Shown in pieces: positions 30,058-38,951 of a DNA stretch of 64,000 nucleotides. The DNA is from Ruficoccus sp. ZRK36 (GTDB lineage Bacteria > Verrucomicrobiota > Verrucomicrobiia > Opitutales > Cerasicoccaceae). The notes under the pieces were generated by a model. The model was given only the letters and a program-made list of their open reading frames with translations. It made no database searches and was not told the DNA's origin. The position numbers and the translations under genes were made by a program. Every line of letters starts with the position of its first letter. Positions within the stretch are counted from its first letter, which is position 1. The stretch lies in the NCBI RefSeq assembly GCF_019603315.1, contig NZ_CP080649.1, positions 2,366,176 to 2,430,175 on the forward strand, read 5' to 3'.

Positions 30058-30858
30058 CTATAGCAGGTCATCCATTTCTGCAACTGGTGCACGAACAATT
30101 AGCACGCAGAGATTTTCAGGCCCCTGCCAGGCCATAATGGAAAGATCCTTACGCTGGAAAACAACGGGAATGCCATTATCGGGAACACGGCCTTTGCCGA
30201 GCGACTTGTCCAAAAGGTAGAGGCAGAAGGTGTCGTCCCCCTTCATTTCGATAAAGCTGATGAGCTTACCGTTGATCTCGAAGGTTCCAAAACCGACCTC
30301 GGCCAGTGCGTCCACCTTGGGGGGGAGCATGCCGGGGGCACGCAGCCCGGAGGAGTTGAGCTGGTGGCGGATCTGGTCCAGGTCGGAAACGTTTGCGCTG
30401 AGTTTGGGGTCGCGGGCGAAATGCTCGCCGATGCGGTCGTAGTACTGGTCCAGATCGGGCTCGGCCTCGACCTGGCTCGGGTCGAGCAGGATGGCCCCGA
30501 AGCCGAAGAGGATGACCACAGTCGCGGCGATAGAGATGATGCTGGAGCGCTTCCACCAGGGGCGCTGGCCGGGGATGGGCGAAGAGGCAGCAGGCTCGGG
30601 AGCGGACTGCTCAGGGAAAGGTATGGTCTTACGGTCGGGGTCGAGCGCGAGGAGCTTGTCTTTGAGGTCGGCGGGGGGCTGAACGTCAGCGAGCTTACCA
30701 GCAAAGATTTCGTCAAAGTTCTGCTCATCCTCAAACCACTGGGCCAGCTCGGGGTCCTGCTCAGCCATCGCCAGGGCTTCGGCGAAGACTGCTTCGTCGA
30801 TATCCGGCATATCCGCGCGGTAGGCGCTGAGAATGGCTTTGGCTTCAGTTCGGTCCAT
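30058..30858 (-). CDS. probable membrane anti-sigma factor
   Basis: 266 residues. The acidic helical N-terminus (AKAILSAYRADMPDIDEAVF) is followed by one membrane segment (SSIISIAATVVILFGFGAILL, about 106-126) and a periplasmic domain of about 130 residues. That architecture, immediately after an ECF sigma gene (21-bp gap), is typical of a transmembrane anti-sigma factor. It has no ZAS zinc motif (HxxxCxxC) and no close family could be named from sequence. Confidence 0.75.
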   Translation of the reverse strand: MDRTEAKAILSAYRADMPDIDEAVFAEALAMAEQDPELAQWFEDEQNFDEIFAGKLADVQPPADLKDKLLALDPDRKTIPFPEQSAPEPAASSPIPGQRPWWKRSSIISIAATVVILFGFGAILLDPSQVEAEPDLDQYYDRIGEHFARDPKLSANVSDLDQIRHQLNSSGLRAPGMLPPKVDALAEVGFGTFEINGKLISFIEMKGDDTFCLYLLDKSLGKGRVPDNGIPVVFQRKDLSIMAWQGPENLCVLIVRAPVAEMDDLL

Positions 30859-30879
30859 GGTTGGTTAGCGGCAGAAGGA

Positions 30880-31389
30880 TCAGGAGGCGGTGCGGTTACT
30901 CAGGAGGATGGTTTTGAGTTGAGCCTTACCCCGTGAAAGCCTGGACATGACGGTCCCGATGGGGATATCCAGGACCGAGGCAATTTCTTTGTAGCTGAGC
31001 TCCTTAAGGTAAAAGAGGGTAAGCGGTGTGCGGTAGGCTTCGTCGACCTGGTCGAGTGCATCGACAGCGCTTTTGCCATCGAGAGTACGCGCGATGCCGG
31101 GCTCGACGGCCGGGGCTTCCACTTCAAGAATTTCGTTTTCCTGAGTAGTGACATTGGCCGATCGACGGCGCAGGCGCAGGAACTCACGGTAGAGGGTAGT
31201 GAAGAGCCACGACTTGACCTTGGCGGCATCCCGGAGGCTGTCGCCTTTTTCCGCGTAAATAACGAAAGTCTGCTGTGTGAGGTCGGAGGCTTCATGCTCG
31301 TTTTTCGCCAGTGAATACGCGAAGCGGTACAGAGGAGTATAGTACTCCTCCACCAGCTCGCTGAAATTCAGTTTGGCGTGATCAGACAT
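30880..31389 (-). CDS. ECF-type RNA polymerase sigma factor
   Basis: 169 residues from ATG 31389 (TTG at 31398 is possible). Region 2 is YTPLYRFAYSLAKNEHEAS-DLTQQTFV, with VKSWLFTTLYREFLRLRR (promoter -10 contact); region 4 is LTLFYLKELSYKEIASVL followed by PIGTVMSRLSRGKAQL. It directs RNA polymerase to an unknown regulon, probably autoregulated with the adjacent anti-sigma gene. Confidence 0.93.
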   Translation of the reverse strand: MSDHAKLNFSELVEEYYTPLYRFAYSLAKNEHEASDLTQQTFVIYAEKGDSLRDAAKVKSWLFTTLYREFLRLRRRSANVTTQENEILEVEAPAVEPGIARTLDGKSAVDALDQVDEAYRTPLTLFYLKELSYKEIASVLDIPIGTVMSRLSRGKAQLKTILLSNRTAS

Positions 31390-31496
31390 GAGAGGCAAAA
31401 CAGCTCAGGGATATTCCCGAGTTTGGCAAGAAATTAGCAGTATATGATAGTTTGTGAAAAGGGTGTAAAAGCCTGTGATTGGCGGCTTTATTGGCG

Positions 31497-33692: not shown

Positions 33693-33812
33693 GGCGGGGG
33701 AGCACGCGAGACTGCCGATTGGGGCGAGCGCGCATGGGGTTTATGCAGCGAATGCGGCTCCAGCCGGAGCTTGCTTTGGGGGAATTTTCTGCTAGGTTAT
33801 TGGCGGATTATT

Positions 33813-34448
33813 ATGTCCGAGAGTAATGCCATGACCGGAGCCCTGGCGTCCCCGGCTGCATCCCATGCGGCCGAGGCGGATACCGATATGTCTCTGGTCA
33901 AGCAGGTGCAGGCGGGCGAGGTCTCGGCCTACGACAAACTCGTCGTGAAGTACCGGGAGCGTTTATACGCAGTGGTTTACAATCTTACCGGTAATCGGGA
34001 AGACGCCAACGACCTGGCACAGGAAGCCTTTATTAAAGCCTTTCGCTCGATCCATCTTTTCCGCGGGAAGTCCTCGTTTTTCACCTGGCTGTACCGGATC
34101 GCGGTCAACAATACGCTGACCCACCTCAAGCGTAACCGCATGCGCCGCTTTCTGAGCCTGGAAAAAGTGGACGAAGAAGTTCACAGCTCGGACATCCTGG
34201 AGAAGCTGACGGCCCGTAATCGCTCGGATAAACCGGCGCTGATGCACGAGTTACAGGAAAAATTGAACGAAGCGCTCCAGAAATTGTCTCTTAAACATAG
34301 GACTGTTGTTGTGCTGTTCGAAATTGAGGGATTAAGCCATCAGGAAATCGCCGAGATCACCAAGACCTCGGAGGGTACTGTACGCTCACGCCTTCACTAT
34401 GCGAAGCAGCAGCTTCAGGCCAGTTTGAAGGAATATCTGGAACAATAG
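33813..34448 (+). CDS. RpoE-like sigma factor
   Basis: 211 residues. Region 2 is YDKLVVKYRERLYAVVYNL with REDANDLAQEAFIKAF and FFTWLYRIAVNNTLTHLKR; region 4 is HRTVVVLFEIEGLSHQEIAE plus SEGTVRSRLHYAKQQL. The N-terminal Ala-rich 25 residues look disordered. ATG 33813 is chosen; the extension to 33771 is unsupported. It heads an apparent unit with a small membrane protein and an HtrA-like protein, the same order as envelope-stress operons (sigmaE, anti-sigma, DegP-like). Confidence 0.94.
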   Translation: MSESNAMTGALASPAASHAAEADTDMSLVKQVQAGEVSAYDKLVVKYRERLYAVVYNLTGNREDANDLAQEAFIKAFRSIHLFRGKSSFFTWLYRIAVNNTLTHLKRNRMRRFLSLEKVDEEVHSSDILEKLTARNRSDKPALMHELQEKLNEALQKLSLKHRTVVVLFEIEGLSHQEIAEITKTSEGTVRSRLHYAKQQLQASLKEYLEQ

Positions 34449-34473: not shown

Positions 34474-35037
34474 ATGCAGGATCATCAAAAGCCTCAATCC
34501 TCTCACGTCTCGGTCGAAGATCTTCTGCGCCTCAAGCGCTATGAGAAACCCGACCAGGCCTATTGGGAACGCTTTGATCGTGAGCTCCACCAGAAATCCT
34601 GGCAGGCTCTCGCTAAACCTCAGCCCGCTCTGTGGCGTGGCTTGAAAGCCGTTGGCGGCAAGTTGTTTGTCCCTGCTCTGCCGTTGTCGGCAGCGGCAGC
34701 GTTTGTAGTGGCATTCAGCCTCAATCATTTTCCGGCCTACGTGGCGTCCGGCCCGTCTGAGCAGCCCGTGTACACGGCCTCGGCTCCGGTCAGCGTGGAC
34801 CGTGCAGCCCCGGTGGCAGGCATGGCCAAGGACTTTTCCGATGGCAGCCATCAGGCGACCTTCGTGGTCGGCCAGTTTGACAGCCGCGACAGCACCTCTA
34901 ATACCGGAAACGTAACCATGGTAGCGGCTTCCCGCCCCATGCCGGTGGAGTCGAACCACAATGTCCACTACGTCGGCGGCTCGTTCGACGGTGGCTTTGG
35001 GTCCGAAAGCCCCACTGCTCAAGCACGCGTCTACTAA
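34474..35037 (+). CDS. candidate anti-sigma protein, single membrane segment
   Basis: 187 residues. The helical N-terminus (SVEDLLRLKRYEKPDQAYWE, then RFDRELHQKSWQAL) precedes one hydrophobic segment (FVPALPLSAAAAFVVAFSL, about 66-86) and a low-complexity tail of about 100 residues. It follows the RpoE-like gene by 25 bp, so anti-sigma function is inferred from position and topology; no known anti-sigma motif was seen. Confidence 0.7.
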   Translation: MQDHQKPQSSHVSVEDLLRLKRYEKPDQAYWERFDRELHQKSWQALAKPQPALWRGLKAVGGKLFVPALPLSAAAAFVVAFSLNHFPAYVASGPSEQPVYTASAPVSVDRAAPVAGMAKDFSDGSHQATFVVGQFDSRDSTSNTGNVTMVAASRPMPVESNHNVHYVGGSFDGGFGSESPTAQARVY

Positions 35038-35061
35038 GGTCTACGTCATGAATAAGACGGC

Positions 35062-36294
35062 ATGGATGCGAGTTGGGCTCGCGTTGGTTTTTTTTTGAGC
35101 GGATGGGTCGCCCAGGCGGCTCCTGAGAGCACGAATAGTGGCGGGCCTCTGGCTCTGCAAAAGCGCGTCATCGATATTTACCGGGCCAACGAAAAGGCCG
35201 TGGTGAAGGTGTTTGCGGCCTTTGACGGGAAGCAGCCCGGCGGCAAGTCGGTGCTATTCATCGGGACGGGCTTCTACATCAGTAAGGAAGGCCACATCCT
35301 GACCAATACGAACGTGACCTACGGGGCGGATCGGATCTGGGTCGAGCGTAACGGTATCGCCTATGCCGCAGAGCTGATCGGCAGCGATCCGCTGACGAAT
35401 GTCTCGATCATCAAAGTTTTTGCCCTGCCGGCGGATTTTCAGTTTCTGCGGCTGAGTGACTCGCCAGACGCGCCGCCGATCGGCTCGTTTCTGGTCGCCT
35501 TGACGTGTGAGCTGGGGCAGGACCCCGGCCCCTCGCTCGGGCTGGTCTCCGGCTGGAACACCAACTACGGCGAGCGCGTGCTGCCGACGATTTACCTGCG
35601 CTCGGACATCCCCTCCGACGGTGGCGAGGGCGGCTCCCCGGTGTTTGATGTAAACGGCTCGCTGGTCGGGATGCTCATCGTAGCTCTGCCTGAGATCCGC
35701 TCGTCCTTTATCCTGCCTGCGCGCGCCATCCAGCGTATCCGCGACGACATACTTTTCTCCGGTAAGGTCACCTATGCGTACTTCGGGCTGCAGACCCGGC
35801 AGAAGTCCAATCTCGACAGCGGCCCGTGGGTCGAAGTCGAAGGCCTGGTCGAAGCCGGCCCGGCCGCTCAGGCTGGCTTGAAAGTCGGCGACAAGGTCCT
35901 GGAGATGGGCGACTTTACGATTACAACGGATGCGGACCTGCGGATTGCGTCGTTTTACCAGCGTCCGGACGAGTTTGTGCCCTTGCTGATCGAGCGTGAC
36001 GGTGAGCGCATGGAGCTGAGTGTGAAGCCCGGTGCGCGTGAGGCACCGCCCTCAGCGATGCCGCCGGTCGGCGCGAATACCCCGCAGGCGGAGGATGCCG
36101 CTGTTTCAGAAGGCGAGGCCAGCGCTCCTGTCGCACAGGAGACCGATGCCGATGTGGCTCAGCAGAGCACAGAGGCAGCAGAGGAACCCGCCTCAGCCCA
36201 GGAGCAACCGGCTACTGCGAAAAACAGCGCTGAGAATGGGGCGGGCGATTCCGAGAACAAGTCGGAGAAGGCTGAAGAATCCCCGGCCTCCTGA
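35062..36294 (+). CDS. HtrA-like PDZ protein lacking the catalytic triad; N-terminus frameshifted
   Basis: 410 residues in the open frame from ATG 35062. A trypsin-like domain (about 40-240) aligns with DegP, but all three catalytic residues differ: His in TNNHVV is Asn in TNTNVT, Asp in TDLAVLKV is Asn in TNVSIIKV, and Ser in GNSGG is Gly in GEGGS. One PDZ domain follows (WVEVEGLVEAGPAAQAGLKVGDKVLEM region), then a Glu/Ala-rich disordered tail. The natural start appears to be ATG 35048 (AAGG upstream), coding NKTAWMRVGLALVFF, which meets a TGA at the T9 run; one extra T would join it to LSGWVAQAA and complete a signal peptide. Likely a periplasmic pseudoprotease of the sigma-factor unit. Confidence 0.8.
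   Translation: MDASWARVGFFLSGWVAQAAPESTNSGGPLALQKRVIDIYRANEKAVVKVFAAFDGKQPGGKSVLFIGTGFYISKEGHILTNTNVTYGADRIWVERNGIAYAAELIGSDPLTNVSIIKVFALPADFQFLRLSDSPDAPPIGSFLVALTCELGQDPGPSLGLVSGWNTNYGERVLPTIYLRSDIPSDGGEGGSPVFDVNGSLVGMLIVALPEIRSSFILPARAIQRIRDDILFSGKVTYAYFGLQTRQKSNLDSGPWVEVEGLVEAGPAAQAGLKVGDKVLEMGDFTITTDADLRIASFYQRPDEFVPLLIERDGERMELSVKPGAREAPPSAMPPVGANTPQAEDAAVSEGEASAPVAQETDADVAQQSTEAAEEPASAQEQPATAKNSAENGAGDSENKSEKAEESPAS
35088..35096 (+). repeat. T9 homopolymer inside the HtrA-like signal-peptide codons
   Basis: Nine consecutive T residues. Upstream frame (from ATG 35048) and downstream frame differ by one base across this run; ten T would give a continuous signal peptide. A candidate for slippage, phase variation or an assembly error. 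Confidence 0.85.
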
Positions 36295-37364: not shown

Positions 37365-37565
37365 AACTTGACCCTTGACGCTACTTATACATCGGTGGGC
37401 TGGCAAGAATCTTTGTGGGGTAATCAGCCTATTTTTAATAGAAATACCTTGTAGCCGTTAGGCGCGGGTAGAGTTCGGTAAAAAGGCTGAGTTGTTTGCG
37501 GGGTGCAGGTGTGGATCAACTTTGAGTTGTCGCGAAAGAAACGATATGGTGTATACTTAGGGATT

Positions 37566-38951
37566 ATGCGTATTGAGAAAGACTCTATGGGCGAGATGGA
37601 AGTGCCGGAGGAGGCACTCTATGGGGCGTCAACGCAGCGGGCCGTGCTGAACTTTCCGATCAGCGGCCACCGGATGCCGGAAGGGTTTATCCGTGGGCTG
37701 GGACTGGTCAAGTGGGCCTGTGCGGATGCCAACGAAAAGCTGGGCCGCCTCACACCGGAAAAGGCGGAGCTGATCAAGCGTGCCTGCCAGGAGGTGATCG
37801 AGGGTAAGCTCTCGGAGCATTTCCCGGTCGATGTTTTTCAGACGGGTAGTGGGACCTCTTCAAACATGAACCTGAACGAGGTCGTCTCGAATCGCGTCTG
37901 CCAATACGTGGACAAGCCGATCGGCTCGAAGCAGCCGATCCACCCGAACGACGACGTGAACCTCGGGCAGTCCTCCAACGACATCGTACCGACCGTGCTG
38001 CACGTCAGCCTGGCGGTGGCGATCAAGGAGACTCTTGTCCCCGCGCTGAAGCAGCTCTTCGAAGAGCTCGACGCCAAGGCGGAGGCTTTTGAACAGATCA
38101 TCAAGATCGGGCGCACACACCTGATGGACGCGACCCCGCTGTCGCTGGGGCAGGAGTTCTCCGGCTATGCTGCGCAGGTGCGTAAGGCTGTCGTCCGGGC
38201 CGAGGACGCCATCGACCGGCTGGAGGAACTGGCTATCGGCGGGACCGCCGTCGGCACCGGGATCAATTGCCACCCGGACTTTCCGGGGCTGGTCTGCGAG
38301 GTCTTACGCGAAAAGACGGGGATCGGGTTCCGCGAGGCGGACAACCATTTCGAGGCGCAGGGCGGGCGCGACGACTGCGTAGAGGTCGCCGGGCTGCTGG
38401 CCACCATTGCCGCCAGCCTGACGAAGATCGCCAACGACATTCGTCTGCTCGGCTCGGGGCCGCGCTCAGGGCTGGGTGAGTTGAATCTGCCGCCGACGCA
38501 GCCGGGCTCCTCGATCATGCCGGGTAAGGTCAACCCCGTGATGAGCGAGATGATCGTGCAGGCCTCCAACTATGTCATCGCCATGAGCAATCTCGTGGCC
38601 ATGTGCGGGCGGGATGGCCACTTTGAGCTAAACGTAACGATCCCGACCATCGCCTACGCGCTGCACGACAGCGTGCTTGTGCTGGCCAACGGGGCGACGA
38701 CCTTTGCCGAGCGCTGCGTGAGCGGGATCGAGCCGAACGAGGTCCGCTGCAGCGAGCTGGTGGAGCGCTCGCTCATGCTGGTGACGGCTCTCAACCCGTA
38801 CATCGGCTACGACAACGCCGCGCGAGTGGCCAAGAAGGCCCACAAGGAAAACAAGACCCTGAAGGAAGTTCTGCTCGAAGAAAAGCTGATGGACGAGGCC
38901 GAGATCGACAAGGCGCTCGATCCGAAGGCGATGATCCACCCGAAGGCGTAG
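37566..38951 (+). CDS. fumC: class II fumarate hydratase
   Basis: 461 residues. Interconverts fumarate and malate in the TCA cycle, the step after succinate dehydrogenase. Family blocks are TGSGTSSNMNLNEV, HPNDDVNLGQSSND, GRTHLMDATPLSLGQE and the signature GSSIMPGKVNPV with the flexible catalytic Ser loop. The start at ATG 37566 (RIEKDSMGEMEVP) matches the family; the longer frame from 37503 is not conserved. TATACT at 37552-37557 lies so close to the start that a very short leader is possible. Confidence 0.96.
   Translation: MRIEKDSMGEMEVPEEALYGASTQRAVLNFPISGHRMPEGFIRGLGLVKWACADANEKLGRLTPEKAELIKRACQEVIEGKLSEHFPVDVFQTGSGTSSNMNLNEVVSNRVCQYVDKPIGSKQPIHPNDDVNLGQSSNDIVPTVLHVSLAVAIKETLVPALKQLFEELDAKAEAFEQIIKIGRTHLMDATPLSLGQEFSGYAAQVRKAVVRAEDAIDRLEELAIGGTAVGTGINCHPDFPGLVCEVLREKTGIGFREADNHFEAQGGRDDCVEVAGLLATIAASLTKIANDIRLLGSGPRSGLGELNLPPTQPGSSIMPGKVNPVMSEMIVQASNYVIAMSNLVAMCGRDGHFELNVTIPTIAYALHDSVLVLANGATTFAERCVSGIEPNEVRCSELVERSLMLVTALNPYIGYDNAARVAKKAHKENKTLKEVLLEEKLMDEAEIDKALDPKAMIHPKA

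Follow-up and report, generated by a model that had tools for sequence, protein, structure and literature searches.

A predicted non-catalytic HtrA-type protein in a putative envelope-stress operon of Verrucomicrobiota, with a frame break at a T9 run in its signal peptide

Introduction

Envelope-stress signalling is best known from Proteobacteria, in which an active HtrA cuts an anti-sigma factor. The Escherichia coli circuit of RpoE, RseA, RseB, DegS and RseP, as outlined in passages of PMC8103513, includes an ECF sigma factor, a membrane anti-sigma factor and a periplasmic partner, with the C-termini of outer-membrane proteins (OMPs) as the signal. In the AlgW/MucA/MucB system of Pseudomonas aeruginosa, the PDZ domain of an HtrA reads a C-terminal aromatic peptide, the WVF tail of MucE, and thereby controls the anti-sigma factor (passages of PMC8545111). 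MamO of magnetotactic bacteria is an HtrA-type pseudoprotease under selection that binds metal and takes part in magnetite formation (excerpts of PMC4794232). Regarding expression, Thermus dnaX, with its nine As, and Shigella mxiE are described cases of transcriptional slippage, the added nucleotide leading in mxiE to the longer product (excerpts of PMC1088944).

The locus analysed here lies in a stretch of 64,000 nucleotides from Ruficoccus sp. ZRK36 (the window, to which plain coordinates refer), where an HtrA-like protein, called pseudo-HtrA below, is encoded behind a sigma factor gene and a candidate anti-sigma gene. The locus shares with the E. coli circuit, as those passages present it, the ECF sigma factor, a candidate membrane anti-sigma factor, RseP and, in the proposal made below, a periplasmic partner and an OMP signal; it differs in that the HtrA of the operon is predicted to be catalytically dead and that the anti-sigma protein itself carries an OMP-like tail. 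It would share with AlgW/MucE an HtrA-type PDZ that reads an aromatic C-terminus in order to control an anti-sigma factor, although AlgW is an active protease and its ligand, in the passages cited, is a third protein and not the anti-sigma factor. Pseudo-HtrA resembles MamO, as excerpted, in being an HtrA-type pseudoprotease under selection, but it is encoded in a sigma operon, whereas MamO serves magnetite formation and those excerpts describe no sigma operon for it. The putative slippage site is, like those of dnaX and mxiE, a run of A or T, and unlike them it lies within a signal peptide, so that slippage would here decide export. Among the matches listed in the open-access literature, no paper dealt with a Verrucomicrobial pseudo-HtrA or with slippage in its signal peptide, and neither is described in the excerpts of PMC6411480, PMC3711429, PMC5009743 and PMC11642142.

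The operon and its distribution

The first gene (33807-34448, plus strand) encodes an RpoE-like ECF sigma factor, recognised by the Pfam domains Sigma70_r2/r4_2 and by the NCBIfam RpoE model (2.1e-42, under the cut-off of that model). It is followed by the gene for a candidate membrane anti-sigma factor (34474-35037, plus strand), assigned by position, synteny and hydropathy and belonging to no Pfam family, and by the open frame of pseudo-HtrA as it had been delimited before (35062-36294, plus strand, 410 residues). The presence of both upstream genes agrees with the preliminary description of this DNA, and the order of an ECF sigma gene and then, in the anti-sigma position, a gene for a membrane protein is the RpoE/RseA-type layout. 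The same genome encodes one active HtrA with two PDZ domains and an RseP-type site-2 protease (TIGR00054, 203.9 bits, cut-off 147.55).

The three genes occur on the same strand and in the same order in all 20 loci of the set L040-L059. In the wider survey 114 of 116 fetched loci were analysed, the other two being 10-base stubs; 90 of the 114 were recognised as operons by an automatic test and L104 was added by HMM hits, and the remaining 23 comprise 12 active HtrAs without the pair, five pseudo-HtrA loci that a contig end or a stretch of Ns makes unjudgeable (L107, L138, L153, L157, L164) and six unlinked ones. Thus, the 102 pseudo-HtrA loci outside the window, each from a different genome, divide into 91 with the three genes in order, six unlinked and five unjudgeable. 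The unlinked genes, with no sigma gene in about 2 kb upstream, belong to families f17 (L169, L170, L172, L177), f9 (L181) and f28 (L184); the sigma/anti-sigma pair sits elsewhere in the genomes of f17 and f28, and in the f9 genome, where pseudo-HtrA is present, no sigma match was found at 1e-30. A search of 40 genomes of f29, f32, f33, f37 and f38 gave a match in 22, and each of the 22 f29 loci found carries the operon. The claim that the pseudoprotease is tied to an RpoE-like/anti-sigma pair is therefore strongly supported (91 of 102 loci, and 22 of 22 in f29), and the accompanying terms "envelope stress" and "sensor or chaperone" are retained as putative functions.

The sigma match is likewise missing from the sampled genomes of f1, f11, f17 and f20 in which no close pseudo-HtrA was found (9/9), and it is present in six such f14 genomes; in f14 the HtrA matches are solely at the level of ordinary HtrAs, two of which (L122 and L123) were checked as active. 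The f14 loci with the pair and without a close pseudo-HtrA are L192-L194 and L196-L198, and in four of these six genomes the next gene resembles the window gene at 37503-38951, which we take to be fumarase-like. A scan for GAAC-type promoters upstream of the sigma gene gave no consistent motif in the rows tried. The window contains a second pair of ECF sigma and candidate anti-sigma genes on the minus strand (30058-31398), the anti-sigma protein of which ends in Leu.

An HtrA layout without the catalytic triad

Pseudo-HtrA presents the layout of HtrA/DegP (Do) proteins, a trypsin-like domain followed by a PDZ domain: Pfam places Trypsin_2, devoid of catalytic residues, at residues 68-204 (35263-35673, plus strand, 7e-18) and PDZ_2 at residues 242-322 (35785-36027, plus strand, 2.3e-8), and a C-terminal acidic tail rich in Ala, Glu and Ser (36058-36291, plus strand) is variable across the family in alignment A1. 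The model TIGR02037 matches with an E value of 1.4e-29, but scores 103 bits, where its cut-off is 416, and a profile-profile alignment gives a probability of 100 and an E value of 2.2e-49. The retention of the protease fold and the PDZ, proposed earlier, is thus supported by Pfam, sequence and profile matches. The triad was mapped by three routes, namely alignments to solved HtrAs, a MAFFT alignment with 13 active homologues (12 from genomes of the phylum plus L001 of the own genome) and the profile-profile alignment. All three place Asn84 (35311-35313) on the catalytic His, Asn113 (35398-35400) on the Asp and Gly190 (35629-35631) on the Ser, all on the plus strand, in agreement with the replacements first proposed, and the active HtrA of the same genome (L001, C1:2354738) reads TNAHVV, TDLAVVK and GNSGGP.

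The replacement is conserved in homologues, as had been asked of it. Among 103 family rows, the window included, His at position 84 occurs in none, Asp at 113 in one (L166) and Ser at 190 in 12; 90 rows have none of the triad residues, no row has two and none the complete His-Asp-Ser triad of these serine endopeptidases, which is present in 13/13 active homologues. A triad rebuilt from other positions, which would have contradicted the earlier proposal, was not found by sequence among 102 rows; there is no conserved His column, the best being position 78 with 63 of 102 rows. Other positions are fixed, since Arg180 (35599-35601, plus strand) is found in 102/102 family rows and is Gln in 13/13 active rows, Pro157 is found in 102/102 and is Val or Met in the actives, and the PDZ loop glycine Gly242 is retained in 98/102. 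Two AlphaFold models built with four sequences (the window and L037-L039) reached mean pLDDT values of 40.9 and 46.9, with a poor protease domain and good values solely in the PDZ; the Foldseek matches, which were built on the first of these models, were left out of the triad argument. A search of viral contigs for extra folding rows gave a single distant match, which was set aside.

Of 273 genomes in the order, 246 contain a match to the protein (E at most 1e-3), and of 387 in the phylum, 274 match the 21-row profile A1 (1e-20); both totals include ordinary HtrAs. In a tree of 65 rows, the 52 pseudo-HtrA rows form one side of a 100/100 branch, the pattern expected from a single ancient loss; this tree has no fixed root, contains few active rows and includes several long branches. 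On sequence grounds, pseudo-HtrA is best regarded as an HtrA-fold pseudoprotease, predicted to be non-catalytic, whose triad loss has been conserved over a long time. The f29 proteins appear further changed, as in the two tested Pfam sees the PDZ only, the protease domain being too altered; the third operon gene with a PDZ is found there at L205 7-888, L206 2700-3566 and L215-L236.

The candidate anti-sigma protein and its aromatic C-terminus

The product of the second gene consists of a short N-terminal part, a hydrophobic window at residues 65-83 and about 100 further residues. A hydrophobic window of at least 1.3 is present in 91 of 92 candidates, and the N-terminal stretch LLRLKR.E.P is common to them; the overall sequence is barely conserved (mean column identity of 20% in 40 rows), and none of 40 members matched any Pfam family, a known RseA or zinc-finger domain included. 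We infer that this gene encodes an anti-sigma factor.

The protein ends in Arg-Val-Tyr (35026-35034, plus strand), a proposed PDZ ligand. In the 91 operon rows the last residue is Phe in 61 and Tyr in 22, that is, aromatic in 83; such residues prevail within 25 of the 28 family codes, and weighted by family the residues at -1, -2 and -3 are hydrophobic in 25%, 60% and 27%, respectively. Terminal Phe or Tyr is found in 1/90 of the sigma factors and 3/90 of the pseudo-HtrAs, and the background from crude gene calls is 19/234 (5/54 in the window, where an antisense ORF stands in place of the anti-sigma gene and is counted as aromatic, and 14/180 in flanks, where a piece of the L045 anti-sigma gene is likewise so counted). 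L045, whose anti-sigma ORF is interrupted by Ns, was for that reason excluded from the counts of tails and signal peptides, and L238, from the same genome, has the tail SIY in another frame together with the T9 run described below; the tails of L093 and L104 were assigned by HMM hit. The eight non-aromatic tails include those of four of the five members of f7.

Tails of f29, f14, f33 and of the unlinked loci were counted apart from the 91. Where the pseudo-HtrA gene lies elsewhere in the genome the anti-sigma tail is aromatic in 5/5; f29 has Phe in 11/22 and Met in 11/22, all the Met in genus g90; the two f33 genomes have one Arg and one Tyr; and all six f14 genomes without a close pseudo-HtrA end in Lys-Phe, from which it follows that in f14 something else reads the tail or it serves another purpose. 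Four proteins encoded downstream of sigma-factor paralogues have the last residues His, Gly, Lys and Lys (L208, L209, L210, L212), the paralogous loci L211 and L213 being unclear and outside this comparison. Two Omp85 proteins of the own genome end in TVF and FPF. The C-terminus of the candidate anti-sigma protein is thus of the PDZ-ligand, OMP-like type, and may bind a PDZ. The preliminary description contained neither this tail nor the frame break that follows.

The 5' end of the pseudo-HtrA gene and the T9 run

The ATG at 35062, previously taken as the start of pseudo-HtrA, is probably not the true one, and translation more likely begins at a conserved ATG at 35048 in another frame, with a Shine-Dalgarno-like AAGG (35036-35039, plus strand) 8 bases before it that overlaps the anti-sigma stop codon. 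From this ATG the zero frame (35048-35098, plus strand) runs for 16 codons, MNKTAWMRVGLALVFF, and stops at a TGA where a run of Ts ends. This start gives a good signal peptide yet lies outside the mature frame; comparison of the frames places the break at nine consecutive Ts (T9, 35088-35096, plus strand), the proposed slippage site between signal peptide and mature protein. If a T is added, or if the ribosome shifts by -1, the frame leads through LSGWVAQA-APEST into the mature protein, and the N-terminus so restored is a good signal peptide, as judged both by inspection and with a simple score.

The same T9 is found in L040, L041, L042 and L046, in which the stretch that begins 90 bases ahead of the anti-sigma stop and ends at the run contains no in-frame ATG, GTG or TTG. 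Within f1, T9 is present in seven of the nine genomes seen, including L237 and L238; the remaining two, L043 and L044, lack the run and encode a normal signal peptide in frame. A scored comparison of 90 operon rows, which excludes L104 and L045 and whose score and threshold were devised after the first T9 cases, yielded runs of at least nine Ts in 20 rows (16 T9, the rest T10). In 15 of these 20 (14 T9 and one T10) a good signal peptide is missing in frame and present at +1, and in each of the 15 the zero frame ends at most 26 bases from the run; they belong to f1 (five), f21 and f5 (three each) and f2, f3, f19 and f30 (one each). The other five (L098, L101, L143, L144, L163) are in frame, and among the 70 rows that lack a run of this length, 68 show a good signal peptide in frame. 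Runs of at least nine Ts or As number 11 in the 218 kb of L040-L059, 10 of them at this 5' spot, and eight in the 3.76 Mb of the own genome, T9 being one of them and some being intergenic. On a quick 90-row tree the frame-break state requires eight changes, at least four of them being forced by supported branches, so the break has come and gone; given this and its presence in 15 of 90 rows, it is not essential to the circuit.

A homopolymer of at least nine with a long product in another frame is a slippage-type layout, and the secreted pseudo-HtrA is, as judged from sequence, probably made through restoration of the frame at T9 by RNA polymerase slippage.

Other A runs were observed in passing. 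The dnaX gene at L244 1001-1009 (G000:C1:2866139-2866147) has A9 followed by TAA in another frame, and in clade relatives (L247-L266) dnaX has A9-A11 in 16 of 20 loci, which suggests that gamma and tau of this clade are made by transcriptional slippage and counts in favour of slippage at T9. A further A9 lies among the initial codons of a different open frame, MASKKKAKKK (L242 1001-1009, G000:C1:2277425-2277433).

A proposed circuit

These data are compatible with an envelope-stress module of one bacterial class, composed of an ECF sigma factor, a membrane anti-sigma factor and a secreted pseudo-HtrA, in which a non-catalytic PDZ protein would guard the anti-sigma factor and its secretion would be restored by slippage at T9; we assign this reading a probability of about 0.5. 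Since pseudo-HtrA is not expected to cleave, its role would resemble that of E. coli RseB, a shield over the anti-sigma factor, and not that of DegS. The simplest link between a retained PDZ and a tail of the PDZ-ligand type is that the one holds the other, and pseudo-HtrA would thus grip the Phe/Tyr C-terminus of the anti-sigma protein and protect it from a real site-1 protease. Unfolded outer-membrane proteins, with tails of the same type, would compete for the PDZ pocket, and in the presumed direction of control the exposed anti-sigma factor would then be cut by the active HtrA and RseP, both encoded in the genome, in favour of a putative envelope-stress regulon. In this genus and in several other lineages the secreted form would arise only after restoration of the frame within the signal peptide, most likely through the addition of one U by RNA polymerase, and the break may determine or switch how much guard is exported. 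A further formulation, in which the anti-sigma factor bears a mimic of an OMP tail held by a dead HtrA, and the rate of slippage at T9, evolved repeatedly within the class, fixes the amount of the sensor, is put forward tentatively, at somewhat less than even odds.

Alternative explanations

Regarding expression only, T9 may instead serve phase variation or a -1 shift of the ribosome, or may be an error of sequencing, readings that together we consider unlikely though worth keeping in mind. Within f30, related genomes differ by one T, T9 being out of frame in L096 and T10 in frame in L098 and L101, as such non-slippage readings would allow; nevertheless, T9 is found in all seven f1 genomes with the run and T10 in none, which speaks against phase variation, and the recurrence of this T9 frame break across six family codes, in genomes assembled separately, speaks against sequencing error. 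The heptamer U_UUU_UUU would permit a -1 shift leading to the same protein, but among the 15 frame-broken rows a Shine-Dalgarno-like element lies upstream in only three and a downstream fold with z < -2 in two. This result does not favour a ribosomal shift, and bacterial sites devoid of such helper elements remain compatible with it. Transcriptional slippage is the preferred route to the exported protein.

As for the role of that protein, the value of the tail in f14, where no close pseudo-HtrA was found, makes the main rival one in which the tail is a docking signal for an active HtrA (site-1) or for RseP, pseudo-HtrA being a decoy that competes for those or for OMP tails. The Lys-Phe tails in 6/6 of those genomes and the active two-PDZ HtrA of the own genome accord with it, but the tail and pseudo-HtrA are linked in 91 of 102 loci and the PDZ of pseudo-HtrA is retained though the rest decays, so that we regard it as doubtful, a shade more so than the non-slippage readings of T9. 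A new role of the trypsin-like domain in the binding of lipid, glycan or metal, in the manner of MamO and with the tail being incidental, is improbable: the new invariant Arg180 and Pro157 of the protease domain and the MamO precedent (excerpts of PMC4794232) would fit, whereas in the two f29 proteins tested Pfam sees the PDZ and not the protease domain, and a conserved His column is missing. Residual cutting by residues from other positions or by an unusual catalyst, to which Ser190 in 12 of 103 rows might point, is very improbable, given the complete absence of His from the catalytic site (0/103) and, again, from any conserved column.

Implications

Frame-broken genes of this type may be labelled as truncated or broken by gene callers. 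A slippage site within a signal peptide, if true, would be an unusual form of dose control for a secreted regulator. In numerous lineages of one class, the operon and the PDZ appear to have been retained while the chemistry of the protease was given up, and these lineages make testable the question of whether the HtrA of such circuits serves as a cutter or as a reader.
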